Source: Bacteroidales bacterium
Lineage (GTDB): Bacteria > Bacteroidota > Bacteroidia > Bacteroidales > Marinilabiliaceae
Direction: 5' to 3'
DNA length: 64,000 nucleotides
NCBI GenBank assembly: GCA_024401365.1
Contig: JAKSLE010000006.1
Coordinates: 1 to 64,000, forward strand
Notes under the pieces: model-generated
The model's database searches: none
Seen by the model: the letters and a program-made list of their open reading frames with translations, nothing else
What the model was told of the DNA's origin: nothing
Translations under genes and position numbers: made by a program
Shown: positions 6,468 through 57,374 of the stretch, piece by piece
How the letters are laid out: the number at the start of each line of letters is the position of its first letter
How positions within the stretch are numbered: position 1 is the first letter of the stretch

Positions 6468-8489
6468 ATGAAAACAAACAATTACATGGCACTTTGCGCT
6501 ATAGCAGCGGCAATGTCGGTAGGCTGTACGCAGCAAGCTAATGACGGCTGCGCACATTTTGCCGAGAACGTTGACCCTTCGGTAGCTGTAGAGAACGACT
6601 TTTACACTCATGCCAATGGTCAGTGGCAGAAAAATCACCCACTACCTGACGACAAGTCTCGCTTGGGCACATTCGACCTTCTGTATGAGAACAGTCGTGA
6701 GCAGATTCGCGAGTTGGTAGAGGCTGCAACAAAAGGCAAAAACGAGTTTGGCTCTGCAAGTCAGAAGATTGGCGATCTCTACACACTTGGTATGGACTCT
6801 GTTCGCAGAGATGAGGATGGTGCAACCCCAATCCTCCCTATACTTTCGTTGATCGACGAGGTTAAAGACCAAACAACTCTCGCACAGACGATTGCGAAAC
6901 TTGAACCACTTGGCGTGTACACATTCTTTGCTGCAGGTGTTTCTCCAGATGCTGAGAACAGTACAATAAACATAGCTGAGTTGTGGCAGTATGGTATAGG
7001 TCTTCCTGACAGAGATTACTATTTCGACCAGTCGGACCGTAACGAAAAACTTCGTCAAGGCTATGTAAAGATGCTCGAAGGAGCATTCAAGTTGGCCGGT
7101 TTCGACGACGAATCAGCACGTGCACAGCGAGTTATGGCATTTGAGACCAAGTTGGCAGAAGTTATGAATACTCGCGTTGAGAACCGCAATCCTGTTGCAT
7201 TGAACAACAAGAGAGACTTCAACGGACTTAAGGCTACAGCTCCTGATTTCGATTGGGACGCATATACAAAAGAGCTCGGCATTGAGTTGAATGTTGTAAA
7301 TGTAAGTCAGCTTAAGTATTTCGGCAACCTCGGCTCAATCACTAAGTCAGCTGACACTGAGACACTTAAGGATTACATGCGAGCTGCTGTTATCCGTGCT
7401 TTTGCATCTGATTTGTCTTCAGACTTTATCGACAACCAGTTTGACTTCTACGGCAAGCAACTTGCAGGTACACCTGTAAACACACCTCTTTGGAAGCGAG
7501 TTCTAGGCACTACAGAGAGCTACCTTGGTGAGTTGATCGGTCAACTTTATGTTGAGAAATATTTCCCTGCATCTGCCAAGAAGCGCATCTCAGACCTTAT
7601 TGAGCAGTTGCGCATAGCATTTGGCGAGCGTATCAATCAGCTCTCTTGGATGAGTGACGACACAAAGGTTCAGGCAAAGGACAAACTTCAGGCTATTACA
7701 GTTAAGGTTGGTTATCCTGACAAATGGAAGGATTACTCAAAACTCACTATCGACCCATCTAAGTCGTACGTTGAGAACCTTATCGAGGCCAACAAGGTAG
7801 AATTTGCCAAGGAGATCGACAAATTGGGCAAGGAGGTCGACCGCACAGAGTGGCACATGACACCTCAAACGGTAAACGCTTACTACAACCCACAAGCTAA
7901 CGAGATTGTTTTCCCTGCAGCTATTCTCCAACCTCCATTCTTCTATGCCGAGGGTGATGATGCTGTCAACTACGGCGGTATCGGAGTTGTTATTGGTCAT
8001 GAGATGACTCACGGTTTCGACGACCAAGGTTCGCAGTTCGACAAGGAGGGCAACCTCAATAACTGGTGGACAGAAGAGGACAACGAGAAATTCAGAACCA
8101 TCACCTCTAAGTTGAGCGACCATTTCTCTACACTTACAGTAGTAGATACAGTAAAATGTAATGGCGACCTCACTTTGGGCGAGAATATTGCCGACAACGG
8201 TGGCCTCAACATAGCATACCAGGCTTTGCGTAATGCTGTAGGCAATAACGATCCAATGGTTGACGGCCAGACAATTGACGAGCGTTTCATCTTCTCGTAT
8301 GCACAGATCTGGGCATCGAACTGTCGTAAAGAGTATCTCTTCAACCAAGCATCTACCGACCCTCACTCCCCTACTCATTTGAGAGTCAACGGTCAGATGA
8401 TGTTGTTCGATCTCTTCTACAAGACATTCAACATTCCTGAGGGTTCACCAATGTACAAGGCTCCAGAAGAGCGTATCGTAGTTTGGTAA
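6468..8489 (+). CDS. M13-family zinc metallopeptidase (PepO/neprilysin-like) lipoprotein
   Basis: Secreted or periplasmic zinc endopeptidase acting on short peptides. The signal ends SVGC, a lipobox (Cys near residue 20). The N-terminal M13 domain starts at VAVENDFYTHANGQW. The catalytic HExxH is in VIGHEMTHGFDDQG (about residue 511) and the third zinc ligand in GENIADNGG (about 574). The family's NAYYNP motif, which binds substrate backbone, is present near 469. It ends IVVW; many members end CxxW, so the final disulfide Cys is replaced. At 673 residues it has normal family length. It ends at a strong terminator. Confidence 0.9.
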   Translation: MKTNNYMALCAIAAAMSVGCTQQANDGCAHFAENVDPSVAVENDFYTHANGQWQKNHPLPDDKSRLGTFDLLYENSREQIRELVEAATKGKNEFGSASQKIGDLYTLGMDSVRRDEDGATPILPILSLIDEVKDQTTLAQTIAKLEPLGVYTFFAAGVSPDAENSTINIAELWQYGIGLPDRDYYFDQSDRNEKLRQGYVKMLEGAFKLAGFDDESARAQRVMAFETKLAEVMNTRVENRNPVALNNKRDFNGLKATAPDFDWDAYTKELGIELNVVNVSQLKYFGNLGSITKSADTETLKDYMRAAVIRAFASDLSSDFIDNQFDFYGKQLAGTPVNTPLWKRVLGTTESYLGELIGQLYVEKYFPASAKKRISDLIEQLRIAFGERINQLSWMSDDTKVQAKDKLQAITVKVGYPDKWKDYSKLTIDPSKSYVENLIEANKVEFAKEIDKLGKEVDRTEWHMTPQTVNAYYNPQANEIVFPAAILQPPFFYAEGDDAVNYGGIGVVIGHEMTHGFDDQGSQFDKEGNLNNWWTEEDNEKFRTITSKLSDHFSTLTVVDTVKCNGDLTLGENIADNGGLNIAYQALRNAVGNNDPMVDGQTIDERFIFSYAQIWASNCRKEYLFNQASTDPHSPTHLRVNGQMMLFDLFYKTFNIPEGSPMYKAPEERIVVW

Positions 8490-8514
8490 TCGATTAAAAA
8501 ATCATAAATACAAG

Positions 8515-8550
8515 TACCCTCTTCCTGTTTTCAGGGAGAGGGTATTTTAT
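8515..8550 (+). terminator. Intrinsic terminator after the M13 peptidase
   Basis: A 13-pair stem (8515-8527 with 8532-8544, one G-T pair) has the loop TTTT and is followed by TTTTATTT. Confidence 0.85.
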
Positions 8551-8616
8551 TTGTCAATCATATTGTTTACATTTGCTCTACAACATTATTGTATAATACT
8601 AATAACAACACGTCTT

Positions 8617-8988
8617 ATGTCAATACTAGGTAATATTCTTTGGTTCATTTTAGGTGGATTTATCATCGGATTGATATACATCATCATGGGTATTCTCTAC
8701 TGCCTGACTATCATCGGCATTCCCTTTGGTTATCAGCTCATGAAGATTGGCGTCTTCACGTTCTTCCCCTTTGGTCGAACCCCCGACTTCCGCAACGGGC
8801 AACCCGACACAATACGCCTTGTACTCAATATTATATGGATAGTGCAGGGATGGTGGGTATTGGCTGTCATACACGCAGTCGTAGGCTTGCTATGCTGCAT
8901 CACCGTTGTCGGCATTCCATTCGGCGTTCAACACTTCAAAATCATTAGAATAGCACTCCTGCCATTTGGTTCTACAGGAAAAAAGTAA
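8617..8988 (+). CDS. yccF: YccF-like inner membrane protein
   Basis: Small inner-membrane protein made of two similar YccF units. The ATG at 8617 (MSILGNILWFILGGFI) is chosen over an upstream codon because it gives the usual length of about 123 residues and the standard family N-terminus. The pattern LTIIGIPFGYQLMKIGVFTF is repeated as ITVVGIPFGVQHFKIIRIAL, each followed by LPFG or FPFG, the internal duplication seen in the family. Its function is not established. It is monocistronic, between two terminators, with tRNA-Trp converging from the other side. Confidence 0.85.
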   Translation: MSILGNILWFILGGFIIGLIYIIMGILYCLTIIGIPFGYQLMKIGVFTFFPFGRTPDFRNGQPDTIRLVLNIIWIVQGWWVLAVIHAVVGLLCCITVVGIPFGVQHFKIIRIALLPFGSTGKK

Positions 8989-37301: not shown

Positions 37302-38287
37302 CGTAGGAACCGAGCATGGCTACAGACCGAATACTCCACTGCCGTACGCCGCGCTCACGATGCCGCCGACTGGCAACAGTTCGAGGCAGAGAAGGACGTA
37401 TTGCCTAATCTTCGTTGGATGCCGTCTACTTCGGCAAAGCCAGGACAAGACCACATGGAGTTCTGGGGAACAGTATTGCCAGTAGATGATCCTTTCTGGA
37501 AGGAACACCGCCCAGGCGACCGATGGAACTGCAAGTGCTCACTCTCTTCTACCGACGACGAGCCCACCAGCAGACCCACCGCCAAAGAGAGCACCCCGCA
37601 ACCCGGACTGCGCACCAAGCCTGCCGATGCCGAACTCTTCTCCCAAGATCACCCATACTACGCCGACTCCTGCACCTCATGCCCATTCAAGGGGAGCAAA
37701 CTCATGGCACTCCTCCACGACCTCAGCGGAAAGAGGGACTGCAACAGCTGTGGTGGGGTGAACAAGAAGCTGGAGAACAAGGAGCTAATCCAAGAACGAG
37801 AGAAAATGTTCCGTAAACTTCAAAAGGACCCAAACTATAAATCCGTGGAATTTAATCATGAGAATGGAGGCTTGAAAGCATCCCATATAGAACATAACTT
37901 CAATTCTGATGGTGCGAAGTATGAAACTATGGCACAAAATGCGGGCTTCAACAGTGGGCATGCTGTAATTTTAGAAAAAGAAGTACACTCGGTCTATAAA
38001 AAAAGAAACTGCGAAGGCACATGGGATTCTTTGTCTTTTGAGGTTGCCGGCAAACTGACTGCCTCACAGAATAACATAAGAGAGGGCCTGAAGCATTGTG
38101 CAAAAAACCTAATTGTAAAGTTGCCGTTCTAGTCTTTCCCAATAACAATTTCGACTTGGAAACTTTCTACAAAGGTCTAGGTGCCTACAACGGTTTGAGA
38201 GATGATCCTAATCAGTGGGCACATTTCGACAAAATAATCTGTATTCAAAATGAGACTATTGTATATGAAAAAAGCCATCAATTATGA
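37302..38287 (+). pseudogene. 5'-truncated Mu gpF-like phage head protein with C-terminal nuclease-like toxin domain, split by a -1 frameshift
   Basis: The frame is open from 37302 after a TGA at 37299. The first part (AWLQTEYSTAVRRAHDAA, FWGTVLPVDDPFWKEHRPGD, WNCKCSL) is the end of a Mu gpF/SPP1 gp7-type minor head protein, lacking most of its N-terminal region. It continues into a domain that resembles BECR-fold/CdiA-CT tRNase toxins fused to phage head proteins: GGLKASHIEHNF, GHAVILEKEVHSVY, NCEGTWDSLSFEVAG, NNIREGLKHCA. The frame ends at 38132, but the -1 frame carries the missing end (KPNCKVAVLVFPNNNFD to IICIQNETIVYEKSHQL, stop at 38285-38287). The shift falls exactly on A AAA AAC at 38102-38108. 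Either one A was lost from a run of seven, or the site is a -1 slip signal. The toxin-family name is an inference. Confidence 0.75.
38102..38108 (+). other. A AAA AAC slippery heptamer at the frameshift
   Basis: In the zero frame the codons are GCA AAA AAC, so the heptamer A AAA AAC has the X XXY YYZ phase of a -1 slip site. A -1 shift here joins the two halves of the toxin domain with no missing residue. I see no strong hairpin 5-9 bases downstream, which weakens the programmed-shift reading. Confidence 0.6.
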
Positions 38288-38456: not shown

Positions 38457-39362
38457 TTATAGTTTTTCTTCCAGCCAAGGAACATTATTCAAATAACCAA
38501 CAATATCCATTATGTCTTCTTTCCTGTGCTTATTCATAAGATGTTTTACTTCTTTAGAAAATTCCACTCCCTTGGCTCCTGACTGATAAAACAGAAAATA
38601 CTGAATTACCAGTAAAACTCCATTCATATTCGACCACAAGGTTCCCTGGTCTCCCTTTAATATTTTTTTAAACTTGCCTGCACGAAGAGACTTATAAAGC
38701 TTCAAGTCGAACAAAGGATGCCCATGTGCACAAATATTTCTTATCTGACGAATGATTTCAATATAGTTAGAGAAAGTTTGCTCGTCAGTCAATCCATAAA
38801 AGGCGTACAGTTCTTTCTTCGTCGTTGTGTCTTTCAGGTTGTCAATCAACCTAATCATGTCTCCAAATGATATATATTCCAAAGACTTCCATGATGGAGC
38901 GTATTGGTCTTCGGGGTGCTTTGCATGGTGCCTAGCTATCACATCATTGTGCTTGATTTCTTCATGATATTTCTTTTGGAATGAACTTATGAAAGGAGCC
39001 ATCACAATATCTCCATCCGCAAACCAAAAGGGATTGTCCTTGTGCTTGTTCGACACGTGGTAAATAACTTTTGTTCTCAGATTGACCTCGATGTCATGTA
39101 GGTAGGCTGACAACAAGTGTCTCAACTTTTTATCAAATTCATATAGTCTCACACACTTGTCAAACGAAGTTCCATCTTTGAATATGTGGTTTCTTTCGTC
39201 CTTCTTCGGATATGATTTCTCCAAAGGAAACCAATAGAATCCTAGTCTATAATAGCCCACATCCAACAAGATCTCTCTTGCACGTGTTTCATCACCTATA
39301 GACATCCCACGAGATTTCAATTTGTCGAGTTGTTCGTTTATATTTGTCGCCGTTTTCATCAT
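38457..39362 (-). CDS. AbiF/AbiD-like Abi_2 family HEPN protein
   Basis: Abortive-infection family protein (Abi_2), 301 residues. Diagnostic segments are LDVGYYRLGFYWFPLE (residues about 28-43), YEFDKKLRHLLSAYLHDIEVNLRTKVIYH, SWKSLEYISFGDMIRLIDNL and the HEPN RNase motif RNICAHGHPLFD (Arg-x4-His, about residue 207). HEPN domains of this group cut RNA, and the family is related to the ancestry of Cas13. In described abiF loci a structured RNA lies next to the gene and acts as antitoxin; here a promoter-hairpin-terminator unit lies just upstream on the same strand. That points to an RNA-protein toxin-antitoxin/phage-defence locus. It is in the island with HipBA and phage remnants. Confidence 0.87.
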   Translation of the reverse strand: MMKTATNINEQLDKLKSRGMSIGDETRAREILLDVGYYRLGFYWFPLEKSYPKKDERNHIFKDGTSFDKCVRLYEFDKKLRHLLSAYLHDIEVNLRTKVIYHVSNKHKDNPFWFADGDIVMAPFISSFQKKYHEEIKHNDVIARHHAKHPEDQYAPSWKSLEYISFGDMIRLIDNLKDTTTKKELYAFYGLTDEQTFSNYIEIIRQIRNICAHGHPLFDLKLYKSLRAGKFKKILKGDQGTLWSNMNGVLLVIQYFLFYQSGAKGVEFSKEVKHLMNKHRKEDIMDIVGYLNNVPWLEEKL

Positions 39363-39372
39363 TTTAATATAT

Positions 39373-39410
39373 AAAAACAGGAGGATACCACACGAGTACC
39401 CTCCCTTTTT
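39373..39410 (-). terminator. Terminator between the putative abiF RNA and abiF
   Basis: On the minus strand a nine-pair stem (39404-39396 with 39388-39380, one G-T pair) with loop TCGTGTG is preceded by a run of A and followed by TGTTTTTATA. It ends 11 bases before the abiF ATG, so abiF would be expressed only by read-through or by another start. Confidence 0.78.
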
Positions 39411-39465
39411 TCCGTTTTAAAGTGCCCATACGCCTTGGTTAAACGTACATGCACTAACTAAAGTC
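39373..39465 (-). ncRNA. Putative abiF-type structured RNA (about 90 nt)
   Basis: A transcript predicted from the promoter at 39501-39470 would start near 39465 and end at the terminator at 39373. It holds a 12-position stem, AGTGCATGTACG (39455-39444) with CGTATGGGCACT (39432-39421), with one A-G mismatch, two G-T pairs and an 11-base loop, then an A-rich linker and the terminator hairpin. There is no open frame of useful length. abiF RNA is a described structured RNA class beside abiF genes; I cannot match its consensus without a covariance search, so the family name is inferred from position and form. Confidence 0.6.
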
Positions 39466-39469
39466 AATG

Positions 39470-39501
39470 CAAATTTACACCTAAATATGCAACAATGCAA
39501 C
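39470..39501 (-). promoter_or_regulatory. Promoter of the putative abiF RNA
   Basis: On the minus strand TTG (39500-39498) and TAAATTTG (39477-39470) are 20 bases apart. The -7 box matches TAnnTTTG exactly. It points at the hairpin RNA and then abiF. Confidence 0.65.
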
Positions 39502-39560
39502 TCTTTTCGTTTTTTTTCTATAAAAATCGTTTTGCATCATACTCAACCACACACATAAAC

Positions 39561-39597
39561 ACGGCGACAGCCTCCACCCTCGGAGCCCTGTCGCCGT
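39561..39597. repeat. Strong GC-rich inverted repeat
   Basis: ACGGCGACAG (39561-39570) and CTGTCGCCGT (39588-39597) are a perfect ten-base inverted repeat; CTCC and GGAG inside it can extend the stem. It lies 35 bases past the stop of the minus-strand stub at 39633 and could be its old terminator, though it has no good T-tract. Confidence 0.6.
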
Positions 39598-39632
39598 TCT
39601 CATCTCTGTCCGACCGCTATCTGACCGCTGCC

Positions 39633-39865: not shown

Positions 39866-40195
39866 ATGAATAATATATTATCACTTTTAGACAACTATAC
39901 GCTTGATAATGCCGACGACATTGCCAAAGCTTTGGCACTCGACTTTCGTAAGCGTCGCATCGAAAAGAACCTGACTCGCGAACAAATTTCAGAAAGATCT
40001 GGCGTCGCCGTCGCTAATATCGTTAGATTCGAGCAGAAAGGTCTCATTTCTCTGAAAAACCTCATTGGCATTGCCATGTCTATGGAATACACTTCCGAGG
40101 TGAAAAATATTTTCGCAGAGCCAAAGTTCTCTACCTTGGAGGAACTGACTCAGATCCGAAAAAACACTGGTAAAACAAGAGCACATAAACAATGA
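39866..40195 (+). CDS. hipB: HipB-like helix-turn-helix antitoxin
   Basis: XRE-type DNA-binding protein, 109 residues. The helix-turn-helix lies at residues about 28-60 (LDFRKRRIEKNLTREQISER, SGVAVANIVRFEQKGLIS). In HipBA modules this protein represses its operon and neutralises the kinase. An extended N-terminus of about 25 residues and a basic C-terminal tail (RKNTGKTRAHKQ) flank the domain. The HipA gene follows after 26 bases, which identifies the pair. Confidence 0.85.
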   Translation: MNNILSLLDNYTLDNADDIAKALALDFRKRRIEKNLTREQISERSGVAVANIVRFEQKGLISLKNLIGIAMSMEYTSEVKNIFAEPKFSTLEELTQIRKNTGKTRAHKQ

Positions 40196-40221
40196 ACTAT
40201 TGCCTATAATTTTTCTCTATT

Positions 40222-41367
40222 ATGAACAAATTAGACACTCTCATAGTTAAATACCATGACATAGTCGTAGGTGTACTATCGCTGACTCCCGATGACAAAC
40301 AACTGGTTTTCGAGTATGATTCTCATTGGCTTGCTGAAGGATTCAGCATTTCACCATTGGAACTTCCGTTGAAAAATGGATTGTTCATCGCCAAGCCGAC
40401 TCCTTTATATGGCAACTTCGGTATATTCGAGGATAGCCTTCCCGACGGTTATGGTCGATATCTCCTTCACAAAGCCTTGATGCGTGAGGGAATTGACGAT
40501 AAGAATCTCTCTGTCATCGAGCGACTCAACTTTGTAGGCAACAACGGAATGGGTGCCCTGACATACGAACCTACAAACAAAATTACAACTAAATCTTTCA
40601 TATCTACAAATGATGTGATTACAGACTTCGATGTGCTCCAGGACAAAGCATTGGAAGTCCTCCAAGAACAACAGGATACCGATGCCGGACTTCTTCTATA
40701 TAATAGCGGAAATAGTGGCGGATGCCGACCAAAAGCTGTATTCTCTGATGCAGATGGACATTGGCTCGTAAAGTTCCGTCATACATACGACCCTAAAAAT
40801 ATGGGACAGCAGGAGTATCACTACAATGAAATTGCTCGTAAGTGTGGCATCGATGTACCCGATTTCAAACTGATTAATGGCAAATACTTTACTACCAAAC
40901 GATTTGATATTACCAATGACGGCGAACGAATACACACAGCAACAGCTGGCGGCTTGCTCTGCATTTCTCTGTCTCAGCCAGTGCTCGACTACAGCAACCT
41001 ACTAGCCCTGACTGGTTTCATTACTCAAAAAACTAAATATGTCGAGGAGATGTACCGACGCATGGTTTTCAATTACCTGACAGACAATAAGGACGACCAC
41101 TGCAAAAACTTCAGTTTCCTGGTCCGAAAAGATTCTAACGGCAAGTTCGTATGGCACCTCGCACCCGCTTACGACCTTACTTTCTGCTCAGAAGGCTACA
41201 ATGGACAGCACGCAACATCCGTCAATTCAACCGGCTACCCCACTCTTCGAGATTTCATAACTGTAGGAACCAATATAAAGATGAGCGAAAAACGCTGCAT
41301 CGAAATATTCGACGAAGTCTATCAAAATTGCGGAGACATTCTCCTCAACAATATTACAAACAAATAA
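40222..41367 (+). CDS. hipA: HipA-family serine/threonine kinase toxin
   Basis: Toxin of a type II toxin-antitoxin module; the best-known HipA phosphorylates glutamyl-tRNA synthetase and causes persistence. At 381 residues it is a single-chain form shorter than E. coli HipA. The N-terminal subdomain (GVLSLTPDDKQLVFEYD, LPLKNGLF) is followed by the Gly/Ser loop SGNSGGCRPKA (about residue 162, with candidate autophosphorylated Ser), the catalytic loop TDNKDDHCKNFSFL (Asp and Asn, about 287) and the metal-binding APAYDLTF (about 316). All kinase residues are kept, so it should be active. It ends at a hairpin shared with the gene facing it. Confidence 0.88.
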   Translation: MNKLDTLIVKYHDIVVGVLSLTPDDKQLVFEYDSHWLAEGFSISPLELPLKNGLFIAKPTPLYGNFGIFEDSLPDGYGRYLLHKALMREGIDDKNLSVIERLNFVGNNGMGALTYEPTNKITTKSFISTNDVITDFDVLQDKALEVLQEQQDTDAGLLLYNSGNSGGCRPKAVFSDADGHWLVKFRHTYDPKNMGQQEYHYNEIARKCGIDVPDFKLINGKYFTTKRFDITNDGERIHTATAGGLLCISLSQPVLDYSNLLALTGFITQKTKYVEEMYRRMVFNYLTDNKDDHCKNFSFLVRKDSNGKFVWHLAPAYDLTFCSEGYNGQHATSVNSTGYPTLRDFITVGTNIKMSEKRCIEIFDEVYQNCGDILLNNITNK

Positions 41368-56276: not shown

Positions 56277-57374
56277 ATGAAAGGTTCTTATATCAAGATA
56301 TTTTTAAGCACTATTATCTTCTCGTTGCTCTTCTCGCCTGTCTCTTCGGCTCAAAGCAAACATTCTCTTACTAAGGTGGTTATCGATGCAGGCCACGGAG
56401 GTAAAGACCCTGGCGCAGTGGGACTTAAAGCTCAGGAGAAAAATATCGTGCTCGACGTGGCTCTGCGCCTCGGAAAACTTATCAACGATAGCCTCCCCGA
56501 TGTTACTACTATCTATACACGCGACAAGGATGTCTTTGTCCCTCTGAATGAGCGCGCTACTATAGCTAATAAAAGTGGAGCAGATCTCTTTATCTCTATC
56601 CACGCCAACGCTTCTGTAGATAAGAAAATATTCGGAGCCGAGTCCTACGTCTTGGGTCTCCACCGCTCTAAGGATAACCTCGAAGTAGCCCAGAAGGAGA
56701 ACGCCGTAATCGTAATGGAGGATGACTATACCAGCAAATACGAGGGCTTCGACCCTAATTCGCCTGAGTCATATATCATTTTCGAATTGATGCAGAACCG
56801 ATACCTCGACCAGAGTATCATGATGGCTATCAATACCCAAAAGTATTTTACCTCTTCTAACCGCGAAGATAGAGGCGTCAAACAGGCTGGCTTCTTGGTA
56901 CTTCGACAGACTTCCATGCCTAGCGTCTTGGTGGAATTGGGCTTCATCAGCAACGCTCAGGAGGAATTATATTTAAATTCTGAAGAAGGAAAGGCAGAAT
57001 TGGCACTATCTTTGTATAATTCTTTCAAGAGCTATAAAGAGCAATACGACGGCTCAAACAACATATCAGTCATTCAGGATGAGGAAGTTAAGCCTAATGC
57101 CAAGAGCGATATCGGTCTCTGCTATCGCATACAGGTGGCTACAGTTTCCGACCCCTCAAAGGTTAATGTGTCTGATGAGTTCGGCCCTGTAAAGGTCATT
57201 ACCGAGGATGGTAAACACAAGGTCCTCATAGGCCGTGAACCGTCTTACGATAACGCCCAGAGGTTGCTCAAACAAATTCAAACTAAGTACGCCGATGCTT
57301 TCATCAGCGCTTTCTTCGATGGCGAAAAGATAAGCGTACGACAGGCTAAAAAGAAAGAATCAACTAAAAAATGA
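56277..57374 (+). CDS. N-acetylmuramoyl-L-alanine amidase with SPOR-like tail
   Basis: Zinc amidase that cuts the peptide from peptidoglycan during cell separation. The ATG at 56277 gives a signal peptide ending VSSAQ. The Amidase_3 domain has VVIDAGHGGKDPGA (zinc His, about residue 37), AQEKNIVLDVALRL (zinc Glu, about 54), LFISIHANAS (zinc His, about 107) and SVLVELGFISN (catalytic Glu, about 220). From about 285 the sequence YRIQVATVSDPSK and GREPSYDNAQRLLKQIQTKY resembles a SPOR domain, which targets septal glycan. Its stop overlaps the MCE gene start (ATGA). Confidence 0.9.
   Translation: MKGSYIKIFLSTIIFSLLFSPVSSAQSKHSLTKVVIDAGHGGKDPGAVGLKAQEKNIVLDVALRLGKLINDSLPDVTTIYTRDKDVFVPLNERATIANKSGADLFISIHANASVDKKIFGAESYVLGLHRSKDNLEVAQKENAVIVMEDDYTSKYEGFDPNSPESYIIFELMQNRYLDQSIMMAINTQKYFTSSNREDRGVKQAGFLVLRQTSMPSVLVELGFISNAQEELYLNSEEGKAELALSLYNSFKSYKEQYDGSNNISVIQDEEVKPNAKSDIGLCYRIQVATVSDPSKVNVSDEFGPVKVITEDGKHKVLIGREPSYDNAQRLLKQIQTKYADAFISAFFDGEKISVRQAKKKESTKK

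Follow-up and report, generated by a model that had tools for sequence, protein, structure and literature searches.

On the minus strand of the window, as we call the whole stretch of 64,000 nucleotides analysed here, a promoter of the Bacteroidota type precedes a hairpin RNA, which is followed by an intrinsic terminator and then by an Abi_2 gene, all between positions 39501 and 38457 (Table 1). By sequence comparison, this RNA is a class separate from the abiF RNA of Rfam (RF03085), and the system is best read as a variant of the AbiF toxin-antitoxin kind with a new RNA class. The locus very probably encodes a two-part system in which an RNA antitoxin would act in trans on a HEPN RNase toxin. 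Comparison supports a conserved RNA, its fold and covariation, the layout of box and terminator, linkage to one AbiF subfamily, two placements relative to the gene, and an RNA that outlasts its toxin; binding, inhibition, toxicity, RNA excess and a phage trigger are carried over from homologous published systems and would hold here by analogy.

The locus in the window

Table 1. Parts of the abiF locus in the window, and viral records carrying the RNA and no toxin
Feature	Position	Strand	Remarks
RNA promoter, Bacteroidota type	39470..39501	-	-7 box TAAATTTG at 39477-39470; TTG in -33 region
Predicted small RNA, ~90 nt	39373..39465	-	ends placed from promoter and terminator
Core of new RNA class	39411..39460	-	outer helix 39455-39451/39425-39421; inner helix 39448-39441/39435-39428; single-stranded tail
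Intrinsic terminator between RNA and gene	39373..39405	-	stem 39405-39395/39389-39379; T-run to 39373
abiF-like toxin gene, 301 aa, Abi_2/HEPN	38457..39362	-	PF07751; PADLOC; 8vz6 match
HEPN motif R208-N-I-C-A-H213	38724..38741	-	aligned to PbAbiF
Toxin-less viral records G847/G848			R2 50.5 and 26.3 bits
Toxin-less viral record G850 (L209)			R2 40.4 bits
Toxin-less viral record G851 (L212)			R2 38.0 bits
Toxin-less viral records G852/G853 (L188/L191)			R2 38.3 bits
Toxin-less viral record G854 (L186)			R2 31.4 bits

The initial annotation, made from the letters alone, had described these parts, and they were recovered in place: the -7 box stands where it was claimed; the hairpin keeps the proposed register (39455 with 39421), with a stem three pairs longer; the terminator is followed, 10 bases past its T-run, by the abiF ATG (48 nt from the end of the RNA core); and the protein carries RNICAH and matches PF07751 (Abi_2) with 152.6 bits against a gathering cut-off of 25.6. 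Two TTG triplets lie ~15-20 bases 5' of the TAAATTTG box, the -33 element being judged by eye only. The outer and inner helices of the core are separated by a 2x2 internal loop. The predicted small RNA is kept in the group A relatives L023, L050, L053 and L066, and three pairs of the terminator change on both sides within group A. A 96-nt segment, which includes the terminator, folds with -32.5 kcal/mol, against a mean of -20.4 for shuffled sequences (z -3.8; none of 200 shuffles as good); the RNA core alone gives -14.5 kcal/mol. Model R1, which has the window among its 69 training sequences, scores the core at 35.4 bits, and this is the single R1 match in the window genome, where 150 of 1025 candidates were scored.

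The protein is labeled AbiD by PADLOC, and the only solved structure matched at E<=0.001 is PbAbiF (PDB 8vz6; E 1.6e-26 over 211 residues). R208 and H213 fall, in the R-x4-H register, on R210 and H215 of PbAbiF, which the available part of PMC12373285 gives as its catalytic residues; R208, N209 and H213 are invariant in 21 of 21 aligned proteins. The window genome, 87% complete, holds one Abi_2 match. Divergent from abiF, an HTH gene and then a HipA-like gene (HipA_C 3.9e-40) occupy positions 39866-41367 (+), a second toxin-antitoxin-like pair beside it. On the other side, an ORF at 37401-38132 (+) matches the end of a Phage_Mu_F domain with a score below cut-off and has a C-terminal part without a family; it is perhaps a prophage remnant.

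Fold of the RNA and its relation to RF03085

Single-protein scans of genome contigs and viral contigs confirmed no relative, and profile A2 was needed to find them. The best 80 of 302 in genome contigs, 12 in IMG/VR and 11 places from further genomes made up, with the window, 104 loci, copies included. The same hairpin lies upstream of relatives of the window gene at 42-74% identity, and a pattern search over the loci then showed that sister clades have it too, on the downstream side of the gene. After 10 duplicates were dropped, 69 distinct cores were modelled, and in unconstrained folding all 69 form an outer helix AGUGC/GCACU with 4 or more of its 5 pairs, which encloses an inner helix of at least 2 pairs. 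The outer helix is nearly invariant, in part because the training set was picked by a pattern that contains it.

The covarying pairs that the annotation expected in homologues are borne out. In a plain MAFFT alignment of the 69 cores, the covariation score is 0.234 versus 0.120 for shuffled alignments (0/500 as high) and at most 0.107 for slid versions; 81.1% of cells are paired versus 72.5 shuffled, and 85 cells are changed on both sides versus 36.7 (0/500). The number of pairs changed on both sides, 7 versus 6.3 shuffled (204/500), is uninformative in this alignment. An 85-row model alignment, which leans to the model, gives a covariation of 0.253 versus 0.128 (0/500) and 9 pairs changed on both sides (3/500). 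Within the window's own group, only five sequences with the terminator included, 95.8% of cells pair, covariation is 0.317 versus 0.250 (9/500), 5 pairs are changed on both sides versus 2.5 (32/500), and further pair types number 15 versus 15.1 shuffled (373/500). RNAalifold on the MAFFT alignment A3 returned only 4 outer pairs and no change on both sides, because the inner helix is misaligned across subtypes in A3; single-sequence folds and counts on a named structure were used instead.

The covariance-model check that the annotation had proposed for membership in the Rfam abiF RNA was negative: cmscan at the gathering score found no RF03085 in the window, nor did a search of positions 39340-39620 (281 bases) at E<=10, and the window RNA thus stays below the covariance-model score of at least 37 bits that defines the family. 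The search itself works, since 5 of 40 related loci score (L007, L008, L012, L017, L049). RF03085 had no match at E<=10 on five R1-bearing loci, R1 had none at E<=1 on the five RF03085 loci, and 20 further loci, all with the new RNA, had no Rfam match at the gathering score. GibS and four other sub-threshold Rfam matches at the locus were at chance level and were set aside.

The protein tree divides along the same line. The 8vz6 sequence is closest (50-55%) to those of L049, L017, L007 and L012, all with RF03085; a fifth near locus, L014, outside the RF03085 scan, is 59% identical over two shorter pieces. With six outgroup proteins included in the tree (four of them from loci matching RF03085; L032 and L033 assigned by eye), the window subfamily is separate with a support of 100. 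The new RNA shares with RF03085 the neighbor gene family and, in the window, the layout, and an ordinary member of that family would look so; but RF03085 is absent from the window and from the part of the R1-bearing loci that was scanned, and its matches sit on a different AbiF branch from the window's, which makes ordinary membership highly improbable. By eye, eight loci (L032, L033, L035, L038, L041, L043, L005 and L046) have RF03085-like hairpins, CGCTTCCC...AACAGCGC or alike, near the abiF start and below the Rfam gathering score; the Rfam abiF RNA family may be too narrow.

Placement beside abiF and proposed working

At E<=1, model R1 had 51 matches in 86 sources and 45 in 51 sources, and 95 of the 96 adjoin the gene (the exception is L140:1857, E 0.52). 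Among the 104 loci the RNA is upstream in 26, downstream in 68, overlaps the gene end in one (L069) and is without a match in nine, and all 94 upstream and downstream matches are on the gene's strand. Three of the nine (L030, L134, L139) are cut by contig ends, and six relatives are uncut on the relevant side. By eye, five of these (L003, L105, L109, L117, L137) have a divergent downstream hairpin after a TTTG box, which folds weakly in the two tried; the sixth, L138, agrees with L137 in gene coordinates and identity. R1 also had no match at G106:C16, a partial relative of 45% identity. Of 93 copies, 79 have a terminator-like sequence past the core, a count made without a control.

In 81 of 82 distinct copies (20/21 upstream-type and 61/61 downstream-type), AGTGC is preceded at a distance of 5-20 nt by TAnnTTTG, versus 76 of 4100 random places. 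A -7 box of the gene's own within 60 nt of its start, on the other hand, was found in none of 23 upstream-type loci versus 48 of 69 downstream-type loci. Therefore, the upstream-type toxin seems to depend on read-through, and the downstream-type gene and RNA are separate units. In a quick tree of 100 proteins, the upstream type forms one side of a branch (SH-aLRT 94), with one change in all; this tree leaves out L023, L066, L141 and identical rows, and has an unresolved base and some long rows. Two loci on contigs titled Clostridium and Eubacterium MAG (L067, L097) have their genes among Bacteroidales ones in the tree, and possibly are misassigned contigs.

In the working that we propose for the window, a housekeeping-type promoter would yield a short hairpin RNA that ends at the terminator before abiF, and toxin mRNA would arise from read-through only, so that RNA would exceed toxin. 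The folded RNA would bind the AbiF dimer and keep its RNase site shut. A phage that shuts off or degrades host transcripts would cause loss of the RNA, upon which AbiF would cut RNA and growth would stop. The annotation's suggestion that the terminator sets the RNA excess fits the upstream layout, but does not extend to most of the relatives found, in which the RNA comes after the gene with its own -7 box.

Both the AbiF of C. difficile and PbAbiF have published noncoding RNA antitoxins, and by this analogy, together with the comparison above, the RNA-antitoxin reading offered by the annotation is supported. In the available part of PMC12373285, the RCd22/AbiF locus of C. difficile phi027 is described as a promoter, an ~100-nt RNA, a terminator and abiF, with transcripts mostly terminated, toxin made by read-through, a toxic AbiF, and an RCd22 that protects in cis and in trans by direct binding. 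The window locus has the same order of parts; however, RCd22 has two RF03085 motifs, whereas the window RNA is one hairpin of another class, which follows the gene in most relatives found. Because the RNA of C. difficile belongs to another class, inhibition of AbiF by the window RNA would hold by analogy. PbAbiF, from Prevotellaceae, is bound to its RNA AbiFr in PDB 8VZ6 (Zilberzwige-Tal et al. 2025, as cited in the available parts of PMC12373285 and PMC12737573). It shares with the window protein the AbiF HEPN dimer family, the catalytic R/H pair and a noncoding RNA partner, but is on another AbiF branch, and the contrast in RNA is drawn from the RF03085 of the loci with proteins closest to 8VZ6, not from the sequence of AbiFr. 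The RF03085 RNAs, likewise small hairpins beside abiF, differ from the window class in sequence and internal loops. A literature search turned up neither a description of this RNA class nor one of AbiF decoys in phages; the primary papers on AbiFr and RF03085 may hold an earlier description.

Two other readings can be weighed against an RNA antitoxin. The hairpin and terminator could be a cis leader, an attenuator or translation switch of abiF in which the RNA has no role of its own. The RNA does precede the gene in 26 loci, with no -7 box within 60 nt of the start in any of the 23 counted, and the available part of PMC12373285 tells of control by the 5' UTR of AbiD1 in L. lactis and describes cis termination, in part, for RCd22 of C. 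difficile. But the same RNA follows the gene in 68 loci with its own -7 box, and it persists without the gene (see below); the downstream copies form transcription units of their own, which a role as cis leader alone cannot explain, and we regard this reading as unlikely. Much less likely still is a guide that directs AbiF to a target RNA as a forerunner of the Cas13 crRNA. AbiF is published as a Cas13 ancestor, and its antitoxin RNA as a crRNA forerunner (PMC12737573, available part); yet no spacer-like variable segment was seen in the new RNA, its variable part being a covarying paired helix, and among the 7 sequences of the one clade compared the internal-loop letters do not vary. An antitoxin of a second RNA class, on another AbiF branch and on either side of the gene, would make the RNA a separate, movable part that differs between clades.

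Copies without the toxin

In two loci, and possibly in a third, the toxin gene is degraded or missing and the RNA is kept. L023 has lost about the first 158 codons of the gene and keeps RNA and terminator; L066 has the gene in two frames beside an intact RNA, where an assembly error is possible; and the prophage L212 has the RNA and no abiF. L212 is 81-92% identical in pieces to L130/L210, and its sequence past the RNA terminator is that past the gene in L130/L210, the stretch 5' of the RNA also differing. Among the loci, no clear case of an intact gene without the RNA was seen, six being judged by eye and the partial gene G106:C16 having no R1 match. Such an asymmetry, RNA kept and toxin lost, is what a toxin-antitoxin pair predicts.

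Genomes were also scanned irrespective of abiF. Among 393 from the order, R1 had 13 matches, 10 of them beside abiF (one gene truncated, one cut by a contig end); one further match (L152) lies 102 bases from a contig start, and the two lowest-scoring, L153 and L154 (31.6 and 27.4 bits), without a window-like abiF, were judged chance from sequence. The 10 abiF-linked matches were training rows or copies (e.g. G399) and 15 candidates per genome were scored, so that the scan shows copies away from abiF to be rare, and does not show the model reaching far. Among the same number of genomes (393) of the order, 56 had an AbiF match of some kind; therefore, most AbiF branches are without this RNA as detected by R1. 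In 395 genomes of the phylum, 10 matches were found, 5 beside abiF (the window, G393, and three outside the training set: the new L160 at 34.1, L162 at 30.2 and L163 at 29.3 bits) and 5 without a window-like abiF (L161, L164-L167; 25.6-32.5 bits), judged chance from sequence. In 71 genomes of the family, 8 matches comprised the window, G011 (with abiF), an orphan RNA (L227) and five likewise without a window-like abiF (L229-L233; 27.0-33.3 bits), judged chance from sequence. L161 and L229, judged chance, outscore the abiF-linked L162 and L163. The orphan L227, in a same-genus genome without an AbiF match, scores 43.1 bits and has a -7 box and a terminator.

Three pattern scans of IMG/VR gave 43 stretches, of which 5 had abiF, 7 were judged toxin-less RNAs, 8 were uncertain (L155, L178, L180, L193, L196, L200, L205, L208) and 23 were dropped by eye as chance. 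Seven viral records of five lineages, prophage L212 included, carry the RNA, and none has an Abi_2 match at E<=1 on its record (Table 1); paired records are identical where compared. These records were found by RNA search and may be fragments, and L212 may be a mere leftover. Nine stretches searched with the subfamily profile gave no abiF remnant (best E 0.93). All toxin-less records are classed as viral in IMG/VR, and two of them have recognized hallmark genes: G847 encodes a portal protein (3.8e-128), and G850 a tape-measure protein. A megablast search of a phage collection with L156 had no match.

Some of the viral RNAs resemble those of particular clades. Only a 101-base RNA cassette (96%) is common to L209 and the abiF locus L207. 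In G847, two RNAs lie 8.2 kb from each other and resemble those of L082 (83% over 65 bases) and L118 (86% over 56), respectively; the AbiF proteins of L082 and L118 are on different tree branches. The RNAs of L188 and L172 keep the CUUG, CAUAC and AAAAG common to five bacterial RNAs of the L118/L126 clade on a rebuilt inner stem, which bears UUCG in L188; in L172 one A-U pair is replaced by U-A. L188 has a TATAAT-like box in place of TTTG and no clear terminator.

Type III toxin-antitoxin systems, such as ToxIN, carry their antitoxin in tandem repeats, and the ToxIN toxin family is not known to be related to AbiF. The window RNA, with a single R1 match at the locus and in the genome, has no tandem repeats, unlike ToxIN; by sequence, RNA gene, terminator and toxin stand under one promoter as in ToxIN, but not in the downstream-type relatives. 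An RNA antitoxin and a phage-borne RNA mimic of it would be points of likeness, since phage pseudo-ToxI is described as a phage-borne mimic of the ToxIN antitoxin (PMC3475682, available part). It is quite possible, if somewhat short of probable, that the AbiF antitoxin is likewise mobile in an arms race, and that phage promoter-RNA cassettes without toxin disarm host AbiF, one with RNAs like those of two clades and another with clade loop letters on a UUCG-capped stem. Decoy use by phages is a reading, not a result. The phage-borne copies offer material for asking if phages counter AbiF by RNA mimicry, and, with the natural pair swaps and toxin-less copies, test material for the letters that inhibit the HEPN protein.

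Few neighbors of orphan RNAs were named by PHROGs, Pfam or NCBIfam. In L209, the orphan RNA has HicA/HicB-like toxin-antitoxin genes (HicA 7.1e-19) ~250 bases away, at 7982-8703 (-). Near the RNA in L212 (2707-3243), and just before the orphan RNA in L227 (1070-1456), a small protein is encoded that probably has a membrane segment (by eye); the two are 46% identical over 59 residues and had no family above cut-off (L227: Pfam only). In IMG/VR, L196 and L205, on records lacking Abi_2, have a hairpin with AGTGC/GCACTATAAAA ends and no internal loop (35.5 bits), with a TATATTTG box and a terminator-like sequence. On the viral record G861, where abiF is accompanied by its own RNA, a second, weaker R2 match lies at 57043-57092 (24.5 bits).
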